This document shows, piece after piece, positions 28,601 to 36,051 of a stretch of 64,000 bases of DNA. Position 1 is the stretch's first letter. Each line of letters opens with the position of its first letter. The position numbers and the translations under genes were made by a program. This stretch comes from Bacteroidales bacterium. GTDB lineage: Bacteria; Bacteroidota; Bacteroidia; Bacteroidales; UBA932. The stretch is from positions 164,837 to 228,836 of the forward strand of contig JAKSKN010000003.1 of the NCBI GenBank assembly GCA_024401695.1. The letters run 5' to 3'. The notes beneath the pieces are model-generated. The model had not been told where the DNA came from. It made no database searches and saw only the letters and a program-made list of their open reading frames with translations.

Positions 28601-28632
28601 TTTGGATAATTTATATAAAGTATGTATATTTG
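28601..28632 (+). promoter_or_regulatory. Promoter of higBA module 1
   Basis: TTTG (28601-28604), a 20-base spacer and TATATTTG (28625-28632). The toxin ATG at 28639 lies 6 bases after the -7 box, so the message would be leaderless or nearly so. Confidence 0.75.
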
Positions 28633-28638
28633 CATAGT

Positions 28639-28935
28639 ATGAGAATTATTACGAAAGAACCGCTGCGGCTATATGCGGATAGACATCCTGATTGCAAGAC
28701 AGCAATACAGGAGTGGATAGCAAAAGTCGAAGATAGCCAGTGGAATAGTTTTGCAGATGTCCGGCAGACTTTCGGTGATGCAGATATGCCGGGAAATCAG
28801 CATTATGTTTTCAATATCCATGGTAATCATCACAGGCTGGTTGTAGTCGTAAAATTCTTCAATCACACCATCCTTGTAAGATGGATTGGTACACATGCAG
28901 AATATGATAAAATAAAGGACGTTACAACATTATGA
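28639..28935 (+). CDS. HigB-family toxin (module 1)
   Basis: The 98-residue protein resembles HigB-type mRNA interferases that cut ribosome-bound mRNA. The HigB_toxin pattern is visible: an N-terminal RIITKEPLRLYADRHP stretch, W-SF-DVRQTF, a central GNQHYVFNIHGNHHRLVVVV strand pair and the C-terminal RWIGTHAEYDKI. It is encoded before its antitoxin, the higBA order, and overlaps it by 4 bases (ATGA). It is paralogous to the toxin at 31532. Toxicity is inferred from family and context. Confidence 0.85.
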   Translation: MRIITKEPLRLYADRHPDCKTAIQEWIAKVEDSQWNSFADVRQTFGDADMPGNQHYVFNIHGNHHRLVVVVKFFNHTILVRWIGTHAEYDKIKDVTTL

Positions 28936-29297
28936 CAAAAATAGAATCCAGAGAACAGTATGAATGGGCACTCAGCAGAATTGAAGCATTGGTAAATGAC
29001 GTTACCGAAGAGATGCCTGACAATGATCCCAGAAAGATGGAATATTGCCTTCTTTCCAATCTTGTTGCCGATTACTCTGATGAACATTTCGACCTGGGAA
29101 CCCCCACTTTACAGGAATGTCTCAAAGAGCGTATGTTTGAGCAGGGGCTGTCTCAAAAGGATGTTGCCGGAATGCTGGGTACAAGCCAGTCAAGAATCAG
29201 CGAACTCCTTGCCGGGAAATGCAATCCCACATTCGAGTTGGCTCAAAACATATGCCGTAATCTTGGCATATCACCGGCCGTGGTTCTTGGGGTTTGA
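28932..29297 (+). CDS. HigA-family antitoxin (module 1)
   Basis: The 121-residue protein has an acidic N-terminal helical half and a C-terminal Xre-type helix-turn-helix (LSQKDVAGMLGTSQSRISEL, about 74-93). HigA proteins neutralise HigB and repress their own promoter. The downstream position and 4-base overlap with the toxin support coupled translation. The likely operator would be around the promoter at 28601-28638, though no clear palindrome is marked there. Confidence 0.85.
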   Translation: MTKIESREQYEWALSRIEALVNDVTEEMPDNDPRKMEYCLLSNLVADYSDEHFDLGTPTLQECLKERMFEQGLSQKDVAGMLGTSQSRISELLAGKCNPTFELAQNICRNLGISPAVVLGV

Positions 29298-29359: not shown

Positions 29360-29409
29360 ATGCCTGAATGATGGTAGGTTGAGATATTTTTTGTATCTTT
29401 AAAAATCTT

Positions 29410-29599: not shown

Positions 29600-29749
29600 A
29601 TGATGAAGCAGGACATTAAAAACAAAGAATTTCAGGGGAATCGGGAGTATGTTTCCCCGAGCGTGAAGGTGATAGAGGTCACCGCACAGAGGGTACTCTG
29701 CGGAAGCAACGAGCAGTATGGAAGCGAGAACTATAATCCTTGGGCATAA
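29600..29749 (+). CDS. Short Cys-containing peptide, locus 1
   Basis: The 49-residue product has an N-terminal basic/polar part, the segment SPSVKVIEVTAQRVLCG and the end SNEQYGSENYNPWA, with a single Cys. There is no signal peptide or membrane segment. It is 20 bases upstream of the lipoprotein gene, and its second half is nearly identical to the product at 34436. Small proteins with an SPxVxVIE...VLC-like pattern occur widely in Bacteroidales without known function; I do not know one with this exact C-terminus. A double ATG (29600 and 29603) makes the exact start uncertain by one codon. Confidence 0.75.
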   Translation: MMKQDIKNKEFQGNREYVSPSVKVIEVTAQRVLCGSNEQYGSENYNPWA

Positions 29750-29769
29750 CCACTAATGCAAGAAAGAGT

Positions 29770-31296
29770 ATGAAAAAGATTAATTTATTTCTGACGATTC
29801 TTGCAGCAGCTGCAGGATTCACGAACTGTTCAAAAGCGGAACTTGTTGAAAACAAAGAGACCGAAAAAGGTGGGTCGGTTGTTTATGCCACCACCGATGC
29901 CGCCACCAAGACGACCCTGGCGAATGATTACAAAGTGTTGTGGTCAGAGGGAGACAAGATCACATTCGTCAAGGACGGTGCCACCAATACGACATATACT
30001 TACACCCTATCCTCAGGAGCTGGAACCACAAGCGGCACGTTTACGTGCGCTCAAACTCCCGAAAACGGCACATATACAGTCTGGTACAACTACGACAAGA
30101 ATGAAGGGTACTGGTACCTTCAGAACTATGTTAGCGCTGCGGATATCTCCAAAGCCCCGATGAAGGCGACAGTCACGGTAAGCGACGGAATAGTATCCGA
30201 TATCAGTTTCAAGAACGAAGGCGGTATTCTGCGTTATACAGTGAAGGGCAACAAGACCATAGGGAGCATCAAAGTACAGTCCGCTTCTCGGGAACTTGAC
30301 GTTACTCTTTCCTGCGGAGATGGCGTCGCGCTGACCGAAGGGGGCACCGTGTTCAACATTGTTGTCAAGCCAGGCACATACAGCGATGTCACCCTCACCT
30401 TTTCTGCGACTGACTTCACCCTTGCGACAAAGAAGGCAAGCAGTTTCGTTGTTAAGAAAAATACAGTCTCGCTGGCCACATTCGAAGCCGCTGATCTTTT
30501 GTTCCTTCCTGCCGGCGCTCTTAAGGGCGTGTTCACGGTGGGTAAAGGTGCCGATGGGGAAGAAGGAACCGCTGATGACGTAAAGGTTCGCTTTTCGCAG
30601 GGCAACCTCAAATATAATCAAACAGGAGATGAGCCAAAGTGGAAATTCTACGATCATCAGTACGATTATTTAAAAGGCTTCGAATACTCTCCTGTCAGCC
30701 TTTTCCCATGGGGCTATGATGCCAATAGTGAACATATTAGTCTTGACAGTAGTGACTATGTAGAAGATCACACCAATGAAGGAGACAAATTGGTTTATGA
30801 TAAAGCTTCTTCAGAGGGTGGAGATGATTGGGGCGTTGCCTATTGCGAATCAAATAACATAACAGTAGGTATATGGCGCATGCTCTCCAAGGAAGAGTGG
30901 GTGTACCTGATCAACACCAGAACAATGACTAATGGTAAGGCTCGTTACAGCATAGCTATGAGAGATTTTACTATCGGAGGTACAAATTACTATGGTGTAT
31001 TCCTATACCCGGACAATTACAACGGTGAAGTTGTCTCCGGCTCTATGACTTGGGATGCAATCAACGCAGCCGGCATCGTATTTCTTCCCGCTGCGGGCTA
31101 CTATAATAGTGGCCAAGTCTCTGCTGACGAAAATGAAGGCTTCTATTGGTCGTCTTCTGCATGTTCCTACGGCAGCTCATACTTAATGTACTTCAGTAGC
31201 GTGGATGTCACGCCCGACAGGGGAGATTTACAAAGCACGGAATGGAGCGCTCGTCACCAAAAATATAGTGTCCGCCTCGTTACAGAAGTAAAATAA
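29770..31296 (+). CDS. Fimbrillin-like/FISUMP lipoprotein, locus 1
   Basis: The 508-residue protein has a lipoprotein-type signal peptide ending AGFTNC (Cys20), so a lipid anchor is likely. The next part (about 45-245) resembles the N-terminal beta-rich region of fimbrillin-like proteins (TKTTLANDYKVLWSEGDKIT). The C-terminal half ends in a FISUMP/C-type-lectin-like module: FLPAAGYY, EGFYWSSSACSYGSSYLMYF and YSVRLVTEV. I start at ATG 29770 rather than the in-frame TTG 29740, which lies inside the peptide gene. Surface display and a binding role are inferred. Confidence 0.78.
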   Translation: MKKINLFLTILAAAAGFTNCSKAELVENKETEKGGSVVYATTDAATKTTLANDYKVLWSEGDKITFVKDGATNTTYTYTLSSGAGTTSGTFTCAQTPENGTYTVWYNYDKNEGYWYLQNYVSAADISKAPMKATVTVSDGIVSDISFKNEGGILRYTVKGNKTIGSIKVQSASRELDVTLSCGDGVALTEGGTVFNIVVKPGTYSDVTLTFSATDFTLATKKASSFVVKKNTVSLATFEAADLLFLPAGALKGVFTVGKGADGEEGTADDVKVRFSQGNLKYNQTGDEPKWKFYDHQYDYLKGFEYSPVSLFPWGYDANSEHISLDSSDYVEDHTNEGDKLVYDKASSEGGDDWGVAYCESNNITVGIWRMLSKEEWVYLINTRTMTNGKARYSIAMRDFTIGGTNYYGVFLYPDNYNGEVVSGSMTWDAINAAGIVFLPAAGYYNSGQVSADENEGFYWSSSACSYGSSYLMYFSSVDVTPDRGDLQSTEWSARHQKYSVRLVTEVK

Positions 31297-31331
31297 TAAA
31301 TCCACCTAATACAAACCCTTGAAAGCCCTTA

Positions 31332-31372
31332 TCCAGCGCCCTTGTCAAAAAATAGGGGCGCTGGAATTTTTT
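31332..31372 (+). terminator. Terminator of locus 1
   Basis: A perfect 10-bp stem (31332-31341 with 31356-31365) and a 14-base loop are followed by ATTTTTTAT. It lies 36 bases after the lipoprotein stop. The rest of 31297-31531 contains the higB2 -7 box and nothing else I can support. Confidence 0.87.
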
Positions 31373-31519
31373 ATCCCCGTCAGAGCATCACAGGGCGGTG
31401 GGTGGGCCGCGAAACTGAGTTCGTTTACGCCGTTAAGCAATCACGTTTCATCCGTCCAGACGGATGAACTAGATATAAATTATTTAATTGATAATAATGT
31501 TTCATATTGAATAATTTTG

Positions 31520-31527
31520 TATATTTG
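31520..31527 (+). promoter_or_regulatory. -7 box of higBA module 2
   Basis: TATATTTG, with the toxin ATG 4 bases downstream. No clear -33 box is seen at the expected place. Confidence 0.6.
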
Positions 31528-31531
31528 CAGC

Positions 31532-31825
31532 ATGAGAATTATTTCAATCAACAGTCTTCGTGAGTATTGGGAAAAACATCCCGAAACTCAGCAACCATTG
31601 AGCGAATGGTATTTGAAGGTAAGCAGGGCACAGTGGGAATCGTTCAATGATATGCGGGCGGATTTCAACTCTGTTGATTATGTCGGTAATCAGCATTATG
31701 TGTTTAACATAAAAGGTAATAATTACCGGCTTGTGGTCGCAGTCAAGTTTACCCCGAAATTGGTCTATATCCGTTTTGTGGGAACGCACGATGAATATAT
31801 GAAGATTGACGTTTCAAACATTTAA
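31532..31825 (+). CDS. HigB-family toxin (module 2)
   Basis: The 97-residue protein is a paralogue of the product at 28639: MRII start, WE-SFNDMRADF, the near-identical GNQHYVFNIKGNNYRLVVAV core and VYIRFVGTHDEYMKIDV. It has the same gene order and the same TATATTTG box directly before the ATG as module 1. The sequences differ at many positions, so this is an old duplication or an independent acquisition, not a fresh copy. Cross-neutralisation between modules cannot be judged. Confidence 0.85.
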   Translation: MRIISINSLREYWEKHPETQQPLSEWYLKVSRAQWESFNDMRADFNSVDYVGNQHYVFNIKGNNYRLVVAVKFTPKLVYIRFVGTHDEYMKIDVSNI

Positions 31826-31828
31826 GTT

Positions 31829-32194
31829 ATGGCACAGATAAGGGACAAAAAGCAGTACGATGCTATTATGGCAAGGATTGATGAACTTTTCTTTGCCACC
31901 GATGAGAATACTCCGAAAGACGACAAGCGGCTTCTGGAACTTGATGTCCTTTCAGCGATGGCGGAGGAATACGAACAGGAGCATTATCCTATTCAGACAC
32001 CTTCATTATCGAATACCATTGTGGAGAGGATGAATGAACGCAAGTATTCACAGAAAGAGCTCGCATCCCTGCTGGGAATGTCCGCACCTAGGTTGTGCGA
32101 TATCATTGGCGGGAAGAAGACGCCGACGTATAATCAGGCTCGAATGATTTCCAAGAAGCTCGACATCGATCCGGCGATTGTCCTTGCTCTTTGA
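31829..32194 (+). CDS. HigA-family antitoxin (module 2)
   Basis: The 121-residue protein has the same length and layout as the module 1 antitoxin. Its N-terminal half contains MARIDELFFATDENTPKDDK and the C-terminal helix-turn-helix reads YSQKELASLLGMSAPRLCDI. It begins 3 bases after the toxin stop. The 37-bp repeat copy B starts 10 bases after its own stop. Confidence 0.85.
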   Translation: MAQIRDKKQYDAIMARIDELFFATDENTPKDDKRLLELDVLSAMAEEYEQEHYPIQTPSLSNTIVERMNERKYSQKELASLLGMSAPRLCDIIGGKKTPTYNQARMISKKLDIDPAIVLAL

Positions 32195-32203
32195 GGACAG
32201 CCC

Positions 32204-32240
32204 TCTCAGTTTGTGGGCACCTTACTGTCATTTATACATA
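32204..32240 (+). repeat. 37-bp direct repeat, copy B
   Basis: Partner of 28296-28332 (34 of 37 identical, same orientation). It starts 10 bases after the antitoxin stop and ends 15 bases before a perfect inverted repeat. Confidence 0.75.
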
Positions 32241-32254
32241 CGGGTGAATTGGTG

Positions 32255-32281
32255 CATACGCGAATCAATCATTCGCGTATG
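32255..32281 (+). repeat. Perfect 11-bp inverted repeat
   Basis: CATACGCGAAT and ATTCGCGTATG are separated by CAATC; the stem extends to 14 bp with one G-U wobble (32252-32284). It lies downstream of the deiminase gene on the minus strand but lacks a T run, so it is not a typical terminator. It could be a recombination or protein-binding site. Confidence 0.6.
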
Positions 32282-32304
32282 TACGAAAATCAATTGAATC
32301 GCGA

Positions 32305-33579
32305 TTATTTACCTCGATTGAGCACTTGAGTCATACAGTGGGCGGCACCGTAACCACCGATGAGATTGTCGAGCGGAACCCATTCCACGCGCACACCGTA
32401 TTTGGCATACTCGGCTTCGAGGTCCTTGCTTTGTCCGGCCACGGACATAATGTGACGCGCATCGATGGTGAGGAAGTTATTGGCGTAGTGGTCTGCGTCC
32501 TCCTTGCTTACGCGGATTATTTTCACTCCTCTGGCCTCAAGGAATTCACGGAAACCTTTTCCGGAATACCTCTCGTCCAGGCGATAAGCTGTCTGTCCGG
32601 GGCTGCGCACATACATATCCATCGTCAGATAGTTTATGTCGCTTATATCCTTAGCGTCGTAGCGGTTGAAGCACATCGTGCACAAGTCCTTGTCAATCAC
32701 GTTGAAATAGGTGTCAAGATGCATTTGATACTGGTCTTTCCAGCGCTCTCGCACCACCACTACCGTATCGTGCCCGAAGCAGTTGTTTCCAAGCAGCTCG
32801 TCTATGGCCTTCTGGTTGGTTCTGAGCCCCTGGCCGATAAGGCTGATGGTTCCGAACGGGATGTAGTCGCCGCCTTCGAGATAACTGTCCTCTCCTTTCA
32901 CCCGATAAACGGCGGGTTCGCCGAGCTGCTCATAGCAGGCTTCGATGATGTCAACCTCAGGAGCTCTCTGGCTGGAGTTCATCCTGCACATTATATGCCC
33001 ATTCGCTGTGGTTATGCTCTGGTCCCTGAGGAAATACATATTCATCAGAGGATTATGCAGATACTGAGCCTCGAATCCGGTGTTGATGCCTGATTTTTTG
33101 AGTATGACGGTAGGCCTGTTGATTATGATGCGGACAAGGTCGGAATTGCTCATCGAAGCAAGGACCTCACGCTTATACAGGGCCTGAGCCTCCTGTTCAC
33201 TAATTTCAAGATTGCTTACATCGTATTTAAGAGACGGCTGTGCAAGGGAGACGAGGCGGTCGTGAGGCATTGAAAGCAACGTGTTCGTTACTGTGTGAAC
33301 GGTACAACCTTCCTTTTCAAGCATTGAAATATAATTTCTGTGCTCGTCGGCAGCCTTGTCGATGTCGAAATACTTCTCATACAATCCGGCATCCGGATGG
33401 ATGACTCCGTCAAAGAGTTCTGCACCGGGAGTGTACATCAGAATGGATCCCGCCTTGTGATATTCGGCCTGCGGGTAGCCGTAAACAAGCGGCTTTTCCG
33501 GCCTGTCCAAAGGACTGCATCCGAATGCTGTCAGGCAGGCGAATGCAATCAATAATGAATTGATAATTCTAAATTTCAT
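32305..33579 (-). CDS. Predicted lipoprotein arginine deiminase
   Basis: Arginine deiminase hydrolyses arginine to citrulline and ammonia. The 424-residue protein, close to the usual 410, has guanidino-deiminase features in order: FLRD (183-186), LEGGDYIPFG (234-243), a His in MHLDTYF (H287) and the nucleophile Cys415 in GGYGAAHCMTQ. Unlike cytosolic ArcA it starts with a signal peptide and lipobox (LTAFGC, Cys21), so it should act outside the inner membrane. It overlaps the upstream nucleosidase-like gene by 4 bases. It could instead act on peptidyl arginine or another guanidino compound; I cannot tell which. Confidence 0.75.
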   Translation of the reverse strand: MKFRIINSLLIAFACLTAFGCSPLDRPEKPLVYGYPQAEYHKAGSILMYTPGAELFDGVIHPDAGLYEKYFDIDKAADEHRNYISMLEKEGCTVHTVTNTLLSMPHDRLVSLAQPSLKYDVSNLEISEQEAQALYKREVLASMSNSDLVRIIINRPTVILKKSGINTGFEAQYLHNPLMNMYFLRDQSITTANGHIMCRMNSSQRAPEVDIIEACYEQLGEPAVYRVKGEDSYLEGGDYIPFGTISLIGQGLRTNQKAIDELLGNNCFGHDTVVVVRERWKDQYQMHLDTYFNVIDKDLCTMCFNRYDAKDISDINYLTMDMYVRSPGQTAYRLDERYSGKGFREFLEARGVKIIRVSKEDADHYANNFLTIDARHIMSVAGQSKDLEAEYAKYGVRVEWVPLDNLIGGYGAAHCMTQVLNRGK

Positions 33580-34187
33580 CTCTTTCTGTCTGAGTTACGG
33601 GACAATATTGTTTCCACAGCCTGCCTTACATTCGCCCAGACTTCATCGCTTGTAAGCACGCCTGATTCTCTTTTGATATTATTCAGGTATTCATCTACAC
33701 TCAGGTTGTCACTGACAATTTTCACCGCTGCAACCAGTTCGAGATGAGGCGAGAATGAAGCTATATAGTTAAGCTCCATGTCATAAAGCGTGGGCTCGGT
33801 CCTGCCCGATTCAGTAAAAAAACTGTTTCCAGTATAACACGGAAGTCCTTCGTCCGAGAGGTGAAGCGGGTTGGCGTGGTCATCGAACTTATAATTCCCG
33901 TCAGTGTATCTGAAAGTGTCGCTCACCAGGGATACCGTTCCTATTTCGACGTTGTTGCTTCCGGCATAGCCGATGTTGATGATGCGGGTCCCTTTGGGAA
34001 GATTGCAGCAGGCCTTGATGACATTGCCGGCGCCGATTCCTGTCCTAATACATTCTATCTCGGGAAAAATCTCCCGACACTTGTTGTACTCGCCCTCTTC
34101 CGCTGCAAGAATAACGAGTTCGCTCCCGTTGCTGCAGGAGCATAGGCTTGCAGCTATAACGGCCACGATAATGAAAAAATGCTTCAT
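33576..34187 (-). CDS. Predicted lipoprotein nucleosidase/phosphorylase (MTAN-like)
   Basis: The 203-residue protein resembles the PNP/UDP family, in particular MTA/SAH nucleosidases: ELVILAAEEGEY, IRTGIGAGNVIKACCNLP, RIINIGYAGSNNVEIGTVSL and a late YDMELNYIASF that mirrors the family's substrate-binding Met-Glu region. The start MKHFFIIVAVIAASLCSC is a lipoprotein-like signal peptide, odd for a normally cytosolic enzyme. I chose ATG 34187 because the promoter box TACCTTTG lies just upstream of it. It is the first gene of a two-gene operon with the deiminase. Confidence 0.68.
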   Translation of the reverse strand: MKHFFIIVAVIAASLCSCSNGSELVILAAEEGEYNKCREIFPEIECIRTGIGAGNVIKACCNLPKGTRIINIGYAGSNNVEIGTVSLVSDTFRYTDGNYKFDDHANPLHLSDEGLPCYTGNSFFTESGRTEPTLYDMELNYIASFSPHLELVAAVKIVSDNLSVDEYLNNIKRESGVLTSDEVWANVRQAVETILSRNSDRKR

Positions 34188-34197
34188 GATACGCCCA

Positions 34198-34205
34198 CAA
34201 AGGTA
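34198..34205 (-). promoter_or_regulatory. -7 box of the nucleosidase-deiminase operon
   Basis: TACCTTTG on the minus strand, 10 bases before the ATG at 34187. The rest of 34188-34435 has only a weak TAACTTTA box for the plus-strand peptide gene; nothing else is recognisable. Confidence 0.6.
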
Positions 34206-34435
34206 GCGATTATTTTCCAACCATAGAGAATATGCCATCTCTCCCATTAATTTCTGCTTTCACGGATTCTCAGTATGTTCGACGCATATGTCCAGGCAGA
34301 CGAACCTCGACGAACATAAAAAGAAGAAGAATTCATCACGTTTTTCGAAAGAATTGCTAACTTTAACGGCCACAATGTAACAAAACACCCAATGCAGGGT
34401 GCAAGAACGACCAATAAGTCGACCAATCAATACTG

Positions 34436-34582
34436 ATGAAAACAAAAGAATTGAACAACAAGGGCGGCGCCCAGGCCCCCTACGCTTCACCTGATGTGAA
34501 GGTCGTAGAAATCAAGGCGCAGAGAGTACTCTGCGGGAGCAACGAGCAGTATGGAAGCGAGGACTACAACCCTTGGGCATAA
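34436..34582 (+). CDS. Short Cys-containing peptide, locus 2
   Basis: The 48-residue product shares the second half of the locus 1 peptide (SPDVKVVEIKAQRVLCG, then SNEQYGSEDYNPWA), while the first 16 residues differ completely. It too lacks a signal peptide and has a single Cys. The lipoprotein gene follows after the same 20-base spacer. No terminator-like hairpin precedes this copy, so it is probably regulated differently from locus 1. Confidence 0.75.
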   Translation: MKTKELNNKGGAQAPYASPDVKVVEIKAQRVLCGSNEQYGSEDYNPWA

Positions 34583-34602
34583 CCACTAATGCAAGAAAGA
34601 GT

Positions 34603-36051
34603 ATGAAAAAGATTAATTTATTTCTGACGATTCTTGCAGCAGCTGCAGGATTCACGAACTGTACGAAGGGAGACCTTGTTGAGAACAAAGAGGCCGGAAA
34701 CGGCGGGGCTGTTGTGTATGCCACCACCGATGCCGTCACCAAGACGACCCTGGCGAACGACTACAGCGTGTTGTGGTCAACGGGAGACCAGATCAAGTTC
34801 ATCAAGAGTGACGCTCCCGCAACGACATATACTTTCACTCTGTCCTCAGGAAGCGGCACCTCAAACGGGACGTTTACGTGCGGCGTGACTCCTGTTGAAG
34901 GCACATATACAGTCTATTACCCTGCCACATACGACGGCACGAACTGGCCGGCACAGACATACGTCAGCGCAACGGACATTTCCGGAGCCCCGATGAAGGC
35001 GACAGCCACGGTTGGAAGCGATGGAAGTGTTTCCGACATCGCCTTCGCAAATGAAGGCGGAATCCTGCGTTACACCGTGAAGGGCAGCAAGACCATCAAG
35101 AGCATCAATGTCAAGTCGACTTCTCCGACACTTGACGTTACCCTTGACTGCGGGACCTCTGGCGTCGCGCTGACCGCGGAGGGCACCGTGTTCAACATTG
35201 CTCTTCCTGCGGGCACATACAGCGATGCCACCCTTACCCTTACTGCAATGTACAACATCGTGGCAACGAAGGCGGCCAGCAGTTTCACCGTTACAAAGAA
35301 TGTGGTTTCGCTTGCCACATTTGAGTCAAGTGCTCTTTCATTCATAGCTCCGCCCGCCCCGGATGGTTTCGTTGACCTTGGTATTACTGATGCCGCTGGC
35401 AAACCTCTCTATTGGGCAAAGTGCAACCTCGGCGCCACCAAGGCTGAGGACACCGGAGACTATTTCGCCTGGGGAGAGATTGCGCCATACTACACGACAA
35501 CAGGTGGATGGCCTGCATCACTTTCGTGGAAAACAGGAATGACATCCGGCTACGCTTGGCAATCATATTGCGGCAGTAGTAGTTTTGTTGAATGGAGCAC
35601 CCCGCCGTATGACGCCTCCACCAAGATTCTCCTTCCTGCTTATGACGCCGCAACCGTGGTGAATTCAAGCTGGCGCACGCCAAAATCCAATGAATTCCAG
35701 TCCCTCAAGGACAACTGCTACTGTGAATGGACTGACGGTTACAACGGCACAGGTGTGAAGGGCGTCATAGTCTACAAGGCAAAGGCTGCTGGGGATAAGG
35801 GCAAATATGGCGGACAAACCGGTTACACAACTTCCGACACGCACATCTTCCTCCCAGCTGCAGGCTACGGCAACAACACATGGCAAAGTTTTCTGAATAG
35901 CCAAGGCGTCTATTGGTCAAGTTCCTTCTATTCCGGAGAAAATGCGTACTCGATGGACTTTAGTAGTAGCTATTTCCTTCCAAACTACAAAGATAACACC
36001 CGTTACGGAGGCTTCTCCGTGCGTCCTGTGACAGACGTGCCTGCTGAATAG
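34603..36051 (+). CDS. Fimbrillin-like/FISUMP lipoprotein, locus 2
   Basis: The 482-residue protein has the same signal peptide as locus 1 (ending AGFTNC, Cys20), a clearly homologous fimbrillin-like part (TKTTLANDYSVLWSTGDQIK) and a fuller FISUMP module: PDGFVDLGITDAAGKPLYWA, ATKAEDTGDYFAWGE, SSWRTPKSNEFQSL, HIFLPAAGYG, VYWSSSFYSGENAYSMDFSS and FSVRPVT. The N-terminal half is much closer to locus 1 than the C-terminal half. Display on the cell surface is inferred. It stops 9 bases before the next gene. Confidence 0.8.
   Translation: MKKINLFLTILAAAAGFTNCTKGDLVENKEAGNGGAVVYATTDAVTKTTLANDYSVLWSTGDQIKFIKSDAPATTYTFTLSSGSGTSNGTFTCGVTPVEGTYTVYYPATYDGTNWPAQTYVSATDISGAPMKATATVGSDGSVSDIAFANEGGILRYTVKGSKTIKSINVKSTSPTLDVTLDCGTSGVALTAEGTVFNIALPAGTYSDATLTLTAMYNIVATKAASSFTVTKNVVSLATFESSALSFIAPPAPDGFVDLGITDAAGKPLYWAKCNLGATKAEDTGDYFAWGEIAPYYTTTGGWPASLSWKTGMTSGYAWQSYCGSSSFVEWSTPPYDASTKILLPAYDAATVVNSSWRTPKSNEFQSLKDNCYCEWTDGYNGTGVKGVIVYKAKAAGDKGKYGGQTGYTTSDTHIFLPAAGYGNNTWQSFLNSQGVYWSSSFYSGENAYSMDFSSSYFLPNYKDNTRYGGFSVRPVTDVPAE

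Follow-up and report, generated by a model that had tools for sequence, protein, structure and literature searches.

We describe here a family of proteins of about 45 residues, encoded by many gut Bacteroidales, whose genes, as judged from the sequences, usually adjoin a gene for a predicted exported protein, lying either before lipoproteins or, in Prevotella-type genomes, behind proteins with a shared C-terminal signature. Two members lie in a 64,000-nucleotide (nt) stretch of a Bacteroidales bacterium (UBA932; assembly GCA_024401695.1, contig JAKSKN010000003.1, positions 164,837 to 228,836; hereafter the window), which falls within contig C23 of a genome of 2.65 Mb. By its SufB this genome belongs among uncultured gut Bacteroidales, with three Candidatus Cryptobacteroides records at 83–85% and metagenome-assembled genomes from rumen, roe deer and buffalo at up to 87%. 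In each peptide a conserved core is joined to a tail that goes by type with the adjacent protein, and the peptide-lipoprotein pair appears to be a conserved and undescribed unit. With a probability of roughly 0.36, we read the peptide as a trans-acting companion made together with a surface-directed protein. The surface lipoproteins and secreted adhesin-like proteins of gut Bacteroidales form large sets that change quickly, and little is known of how each protein is handled from synthesis to display.

Both peptide open reading frames (ORFs) of the window were confirmed. As an earlier note on this DNA had claimed, each peptide has one Cys, ends in SNEQYGSE[N/D]YNPWA and is followed, exactly 20 nt after its gene, by MKKINLFLTILAAAAGFTNC, the start of a lipoprotein; both lipoproteins meet the lipobox rule used here and thus have a lipoprotein signal peptide, and no signal sequence was visible by eye in either peptide, again as that note had said. 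Identity between the two peptides is 63%, with a single difference within the last 18 residues (VLCGS plus tail). The lipoproteins are 67% identical over residues 1–258 (copy 1 numbering) and mostly different beyond. The DNA common to both copies begins inside the peptide gene (29648/34481) and extends over 300 nt with 87% identity; downstream of the near-identical part listed in Table 1 the identity drops to about 80%. Because the copies diverge in the upstream DNA and through the first half of the peptide, a mosaic junction is placed near the VLCGS codons.

A search of the window's own genome found 15 matches (14 at E ≤ 0.005, one at 0.15), so that what had been taken for a local duplication of something unique turned out to be part of a set of 15 paralogues. 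Within the same taxonomic family, 101 of 299 genomes (own included), belonging to 7 of 25 genera, matched the profile of the 28-row alignment described below at E ≤ 0.001, with 21 copies as the highest number in one genome. Thin order-wide samples gave matches in 5/247 genomes and, with a second profile, in 10/198 (own genome included in both); a mixed profile matched 10 of the 20 genomes behind named records at E ≤ 0.05, and in a further genus 13 of 15 genomes matched, one of them with 24 copies. The wider peptide family occurs in Alistipes, Tidjanibacter, Bacteroides and Phocaeicola, with the gene order of the window, and also in Prevotella-type genomes; similar "hypothetical proteins" are presumably common in Bacteroides and Prevotella annotations. 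The conserved core reads Y..P...V.EV......[CA].S, in which Cys34 and Ser36 (copy 1 numbering) are invariant in a 15-row alignment, and Tyr17, Cys34 and Ser36 in 28 rows from 15 genomes.

Linkage was counted over loci fetched as best-scoring matches, those of the same family being the matches listed outside the own genome, with repeats of one place removed by sequence. Among 202 distinct matches, 195 had E < 1e-4, and 189 were examined after 6 that lay too near a stretch end were set aside. A lipobox ORF was found within 120 nt downstream in 167 of these 189 peptides, against a background of 7 in 71 window ORFs that are lipobox-positive by the same rule, both linked ones included. In the own genome, 14 of the 15 peptides directly precede a lipoprotein-like ORF, which starts 12–31 nt downstream. 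Judged by eye, the 22 exceptions include eight from two genomes of other families with reversed order, five whose next protein has an ordinary signal peptide (L083, L096, L117, L148, L169) and two followed by lipoproteins that the lipobox rule missed (L086, L104); in one a second peptide gene comes next and then a lipoprotein (L039), in one the lipoprotein overlaps the peptide gene (L042), and five are without explanation (L004, L021, L159, L160, L192). When 30 loci from the genomes behind named records were classified by eye, 21 preceded a lipoprotein-like ORF (Alistipes, Tidjanibacter, Bacteroides caecigallinarum, Phocaeicola coprophilus), 6 followed a C-terminal-signature protein (Prevotella, Prevotellaceae) and 3 did neither (one each from Candidatus Cryptobacteroides avicola, Carboxylicivirga and Alistipes). 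Of 156 linked lipoproteins, 147 belong to one connected BLAST group (E ≤ 1e-6).

Modules lacking a CxS or a lipobox ORF were left out of the spacing, tail-class, correlation, mosaic and dN/dS sets. The distance between peptide and lipoprotein ranged from −11 to 99 nt with a median of 13 (n = 163; starts sought from about 10 nt before the stop to 120 nt downstream), so a fixed 20-nt spacing was rejected, and with it the expectation that the peptide genes always sit 20 bases before the lipoproteins. The three spacing frames were represented by 61, 53 and 49 modules; in view of this lack of frame bias, a frameshift or read-through fusion of the two products was rejected as well.

The order is mostly reversed in Prevotella-type genomes. 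The set studied comprised 42 distinct peptides, namely the further-genus loci (the returned loci only, 29 new plus one already in the set) and the earlier Prevotella-type loci; the seeds of its profile came from loci of already seen context. A same-strand ORF ends just upstream in 39 of the 42 and starts within 120 nt downstream in 3. Thirty-four follow a protein ending in a signature like Y[DN]L.G[RQ]...G.YI.NGKK, a count that rests on a pattern widened after inspection of the list, the stricter pattern having given 18. In 18 Prevotella-type peptides the tail is uniform, with R41 and W50 nearly invariant, and the partners share one C-terminal signature. The link to such lipoproteins that the earlier note had proposed therefore stands for the 167 peptides counted above and is not exclusive; since the Prevotella-type homologues mostly follow C-terminal-signature proteins, a part of the family is without the lipoprotein link on which that proposal depended, and a link to predicted exported proteins remains.

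The partners in reversed order resemble cargo of the type IX secretion system (T9SS) with a C-terminal sorting domain in two respects: two homologues in G043 follow proteins that score above the cut-off of TIGR04183, and SprA (PF14349) was detected in all eight reversed-order genomes tested (G131, G565, G221, G646, G653, G577, G586, G043). SprA was absent from six of the seven tested genomes in which only the lipoprotein order was seen (G000, G497, G223, G580, G575, G572). They differ from such cargo in that neither TIGR04183 nor PF18962 recognized the Prevotella-type proteins (8/8 without a match, last 260 residues of each), and the peptide itself has no sorting domain. The signature in the form Y[DN]L.G[RQ]...KG.YI.NGKK was seen in SprA-positive genomes, e.g. 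at loci L343 and L313.

The two gene orders bear on the possibility that the peptide gene is a cis-acting leader ORF, whose translation would couple or attenuate the next gene and whose product would be irrelevant. Such a role would fit the close spacing and the fact that in most groups the unit begins with the peptide gene. Cis action is disfavored by the copies found 3′ of the partner, as 34 of the 42 Prevotella-type ones are with respect to the likely partner. Conservation across groups is moreover at the protein level, the spacing has no frame preference, and Rfam gave no match in the region. We consider a cis-acting leader highly unlikely.

The segments following C-x-S were compared as tails, for which 192 of the 195 matches were used (3 lay at a stretch end) and 185 had a CxS. 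These 185 tails have a mean length of 18 residues and a net charge of −4, none being neutral or positive; all contain an aromatic residue, and 108 contain Trp. The CxS boundary was misplaced in five tails in which the script took an earlier CxS (L042, L043, L100, L170, L182), which touches 3 of the 163 modules in the correlation and dN/dS sets. Removal of 17 flagged entries left 168 tails, whose mean charge is −3.98; none exceeds −1, every one has an aromatic residue and 96 have Trp, in agreement with the full set. Tail classes were found to track the classes of the partner N-domain, such as TE....G..Y.DDDF with VFTATTE.ATKTAL, and GDV.ATM.G...EETI with LPVTVN..R..D.ATKA.

This relationship was also observed in pairwise comparison. 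Over 13,203 pairs, Spearman's rho with N-domain similarity was 0.202 for the tail and 0.078 for the core, the lower value of the core being partly a matter of power because the core varies less than the tail; the partial rho of tail with N-domain given the core was 0.194. With the C-terminal half of the partner, the tail gave a rho of 0.119 (pairs long enough), versus 0.202 with the N-domain. The top 2% tail-similar pairs had a mean N-domain similarity of 0.445, compared with a permuted maximum of 0.113 and with 0.202 for core-similar pairs, and among diverged pairs with below-median core similarity the corresponding value was 0.240, versus 0.099. Pooled dN/dS values of 0.20 for the tail, 0.27 for the core and 0.27 for the lipoprotein start (95 overlapping, non-independent pairs) indicate that the peptide is protein-coding and selected, so that on sequence comparison the family is a real protein-coding one under purifying selection. 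For the Ser of CxS, AGY codons predominate (136/163, versus about 40% in lipoproteins and 51% in tails), for which ancestry may be the explanation.

Recombination appears to have acted within the peptide gene. In the window copies (L001/L002) and in L003/L007, the stretch that starts with the tail and ends with the signal peptide is 93–100% identical. Near the VLCGS codons the identity gives way to an almost random level upstream (39% and 41%, against about 30% after shuffling). Between genomes, L151/L077 and L162/L129 repeat this tail-onward identity with unlike upstream DNA. Forty pairs have lipoprotein-start DNA at least 72% identical, and in 26 of them the upstream DNA is unrelated (<55%). 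Tail identity reaches 75% or more in 11 of these and stays below that in the other 15, so the position of the junction varies. The junctions often seem to keep tail and lipoprotein together, with promoter region, N-terminus and core exchanged.

The same junctions would also fit a small regulator that acts in trans on the operon encoding it, by feedback for instance, with the match between tail and partner arising only by hitch-hiking, through tight linkage and joint horizontal transfer of tail and lipoprotein; the 26 pairs with unrelated upstream DNA, 11 of them with the similar tail, can be read in this way too. Against it, tails can keep their amino acids as synonymous sites diverge: between L129 and L162 the proportion of synonymous differences (pS) in the tail is 0.44 and that of nonsynonymous differences (pN) 0.04, which argues for selection on the tail beyond linkage. 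A regulator of this kind seems quite improbable to us.

Because no signal peptide is visible by eye, the peptide is expected to stay in the cytosol; and because it lies before or behind its partner, has no visible signal and carries a tail that follows the neighbor, the simplest reading is a trans-acting product that handles its cognate protein ahead of export. Conservation of the core suggests that it may dock on a factor in the cytosol shared by all pairs. The tail, acidic and aromatic, could recognize the cognate precursor while it is being translated or shortly afterwards, and the peptide would then escort the precursor to Sec or time its delivery, as a private and very small export escort. 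To this pre-export role, whether escort or timing of precursor delivery, we give a chance of about one in three; we are much more confident of the two-module trans-acting companion itself.

An exported or processed peptide would account for part of the same evidence. The N-terminal half and core would then be a leader for a shared machine, cleavage would occur near [CA]-x-S, and the tail would be released or displayed as a signal, a ligand or a product resembling ribosomally synthesized and post-translationally modified peptides (RiPPs), acting with the cognate surface protein. The layout of leader and variable tail with a conserved boundary, the up to 21 or 24 copies per genome, as in multi-precursor systems, and the tail classes tracking partner classes all fit this explanation, and the best of the chance-level Pfam and NCBIfam matches obtained with 15 family members (E ≤ 1), that of one member to the lasso-peptide precursor model NF033524 (E 0.017), points the same way. 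The peptides are also, like the double-glycine (GG)-leader RiPP or bacteriocin precursors of Bacteroidales, small, with a conserved N-terminal and a variable C-terminal part. Unlike these, they have no GG-leader match, as TIGR01847 was not among the matches of the 15 members (E ≤ 1) or of the two window peptides (E ≤ 10). Published Bacteroidales RiPP clusters pair GG-leader precursors with peptidase-containing ABC transporters (PCATs) (PMC10352776). Among 450 neighboring ORFs in 152 loci, no recurring modification enzyme or PCAT-type transporter adjoined the peptides in a non-exhaustive scan by BLAST and eye, in which distant enzymes could be missed. We regard the exported peptide as unlikely.

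Several observations weigh against the companion reading. The tail-partner match could come from tight linkage, and some closely similar lipoproteins are paired with plainly unlike tails: in L156/L080 a lipoprotein similarity of 0.90 goes with a tail similarity of 0.59, the pN of the tail (0.43) exceeding its pS (0.38). The largest tail cluster, a loose one with 51 members, has a median N-domain similarity of 0.08, and a six-member cluster one of 0.10. Orphan copies exist, such as L004 in the own genome, and of three named Candidatus Cryptobacteroides genomes one matched the mixed profile, with a peptide that no lipoprotein follows. Gene order and SprA do not coincide throughout: G079 is SprA-positive with the lipoprotein order, and the reversed-order genomes G131, G565 and G221 also hold one lipoprotein-order copy each (L047, L204, L348). 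SprA was found in 10 of 79 genomes of the own family; reversed-order peptides were predicted in these, but peptides were detected in 0/10 of them and in 0/6 SprA-negative ones, in a search that had no positive control there and whose profile matched 10 of the 20 genomes behind named records. Finally, AlphaFold2 models of peptide and lipoprotein were too poor for use or structure search, with a mean pLDDT (predicted local distance difference test) of 29.4 for the lipoprotein modeled from two sequences.

In its widest form, which we consider unlikely as a whole, the companion reading would hold that Bacteroidales-wide cytosolic companions, each with a fixed docking core and a cargo-matched tail, act as private pre-export escorts for two distinct routes to the cell surface, that of surface lipoproteins and that of T9SS-type cargo, and that recombination within the peptide gene joins resident promoters and cores to incoming cassettes of tail plus cargo, thereby plugging new surface proteins into a shared handling system. 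If true, partner-matched peptides in Alistipes, Bacteroides, Prevotella and uncultured relatives would point to an unrecognized step in the handling of surface proteins, testable in culturable Bacteroides, and the family offers a sequence handle for annotating surface-protein genes. Even with a role as exported signal or regulator, the peptides would still represent a large unannotated family.

Among known systems, the gene pairs of a dedicated secretion chaperone and its cargo, for example in type III secretion, are similar in arrangement, with a gene that adjoins the cargo gene and a small, acidic, partner-matched product; unlike those chaperones, the peptides are much shorter, share one core across all pairs and stand beside Sec-type proteins. 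We know of no homology between the peptides and secretion chaperones. The window peptides had no Pfam or NCBIfam match at E ≤ 10, a search of the PDB with the peptide profile gave one chance-level match to a nanobody (E 0.094), and degenerate-pattern scans with the peptides confirmed nothing in named genomes and a viral collection. A literature search, mostly of open-access papers, revealed no apparent description of the family, members of which may be listed unnamed in small-protein catalogues.

Lys is present at +3 (Cys = +1) in 106 of 163 linked lipoproteins, often as Lys followed by an acidic residue after the Cys, a pattern that we take to agree with the Bacteroidota lipoprotein export signal. 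A review discusses that signal (PMC12632263). In being lipobox proteins with these residues, the partners resemble the fimbrillin-like/type V pilin lipoproteins of Mfa_like_1 (PF13149), and 4 of 85 linked lipoproteins scanned match that model; unlike them, 81 of the 85 and both window copies (E ≤ 10) do not, and a companion peptide is in no fimbrial operon description found. The "fimbrillin-like" label of the earlier note thus rests on a few linked relatives, the window lipoproteins themselves being without a match. The FISUMP half it had assigned is weak: set against the TIGR02145 cut-off of 41.65 bits, copy 2 scored 23.4 (E 7.8e-5) and copy 1 scored 14.4 (E 0.045). With scores below the cut-off and C-terminal halves that differ between the window copies, FISUMP was rejected as the linked domain and lies outside the conserved linkage. 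The lipoprotein profile gave 12 weak PDB matches (best E 0.0019), 8 of them in the signal-peptide region. What the same note had called an undescribed two-component surface system is retained as a conserved, apparently undescribed peptide-lipoprotein unit, but "surface system" overstates it for a peptide without a visible signal.

The features of the two units are collected in Table 1. The lipoprotein starts were taken as the ATG codons given there, listed TTG ORFs being mechanical calls, and peptide gene 1 has another in-frame ATG at 29603. Both TATCTTTA and TAACTTTA presumably resemble the −7 box of Bacteroidota promoters.

Table 1. Features of the two peptide-lipoprotein units in the window (window coordinates).
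Feature	Position	Strand	Description
−7-box-like TATCTTTA	29394..29401	+	by eye, weak
Companion peptide gene 1 (putative)	29600..29749	+	49 aa; core YVSPSVKVIEVTAQRVLCGS, tail NEQYGSENYNPWA
Near-identical part of copy 1 versus copy 2	29693..29829	+	VLCGS codons, tail, spacer, signal peptide
Spacer of copy 1	29750..29769	+	20 nt; same sequence as copy 2 spacer (alignment)
Lipoprotein 1	29770..31296	+	508 aa; signal peptide ends FTNC; N-domain common to copy 2; C-terminal half differs, very weak FISUMP similarity
−7-box-like TAACTTTA	34358..34365	+	by eye, weak
Companion peptide gene 2 (putative)	34436..34582	+	48 aa; core YASPDVKVVEIKAQRVLCGS, tail NEQYGSEDYNPWA
Spacer of copy 2	34583..34602	+	20 nt
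Lipoprotein 2	34603..36051	+	482 aa; signal peptide ends FTNC; C-terminal half weakly FISUMP

Apart from the lipoproteins, the types that recurred among the 450 ORFs neighboring the peptide genes were an AraC-type regulator group and a few small groups (3–4 members) that look like ordinary flanking genes (BLAST and eye). The AraC-type BLAST group has 12 members in 12 loci, two of which (L020, L145) look different; in the others (L024, L093, L097, L108, L109, L113, L124, L133, L172, L194) the neighbor looks by eye like a membrane AraC-type regulator. These could be local regulators.

At L050 (1497-2604, genome G250), a peptide is fused in frame to a lipoprotein in a 370-residue open frame. No second case was found, and this one could reflect either an error in the sequence or a genuine fusion; it is not conserved, as 60 other genomes of its family gave one weak match (G641, E 5e-4) with internal stops. 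Divergent head-to-head pairs of units, with 0.3–0.6 kb between them, were seen at L101, L115, L125 and L137. Site-specific inversion at the core was rejected as a candidate: L115 has no arms covering both peptide genes, no swapped orientation was seen, and the arms at L101 (66 nt, 77%) and L137 (44 nt, 73%) are imperfect, as a conserved protein would give.

Within the window, HigB/HigA-type toxin-antitoxin pairs (PF09907 plus HTH_3) at 28630-29297 and 31517-32194 flank the first peptide-lipoprotein unit. An arginine deiminase-like protein at 32305-33579 (−) matches PF02274 (E 6.9e-44), yet has a lipobox by the rule used here; the arginine deiminase family is normally cytosolic. The adjoining ORF at 33576-34247 (−) also has a lipobox, had no Pfam match at E ≤ 0.001 and by eye looks like what we take to be a nucleosidase.

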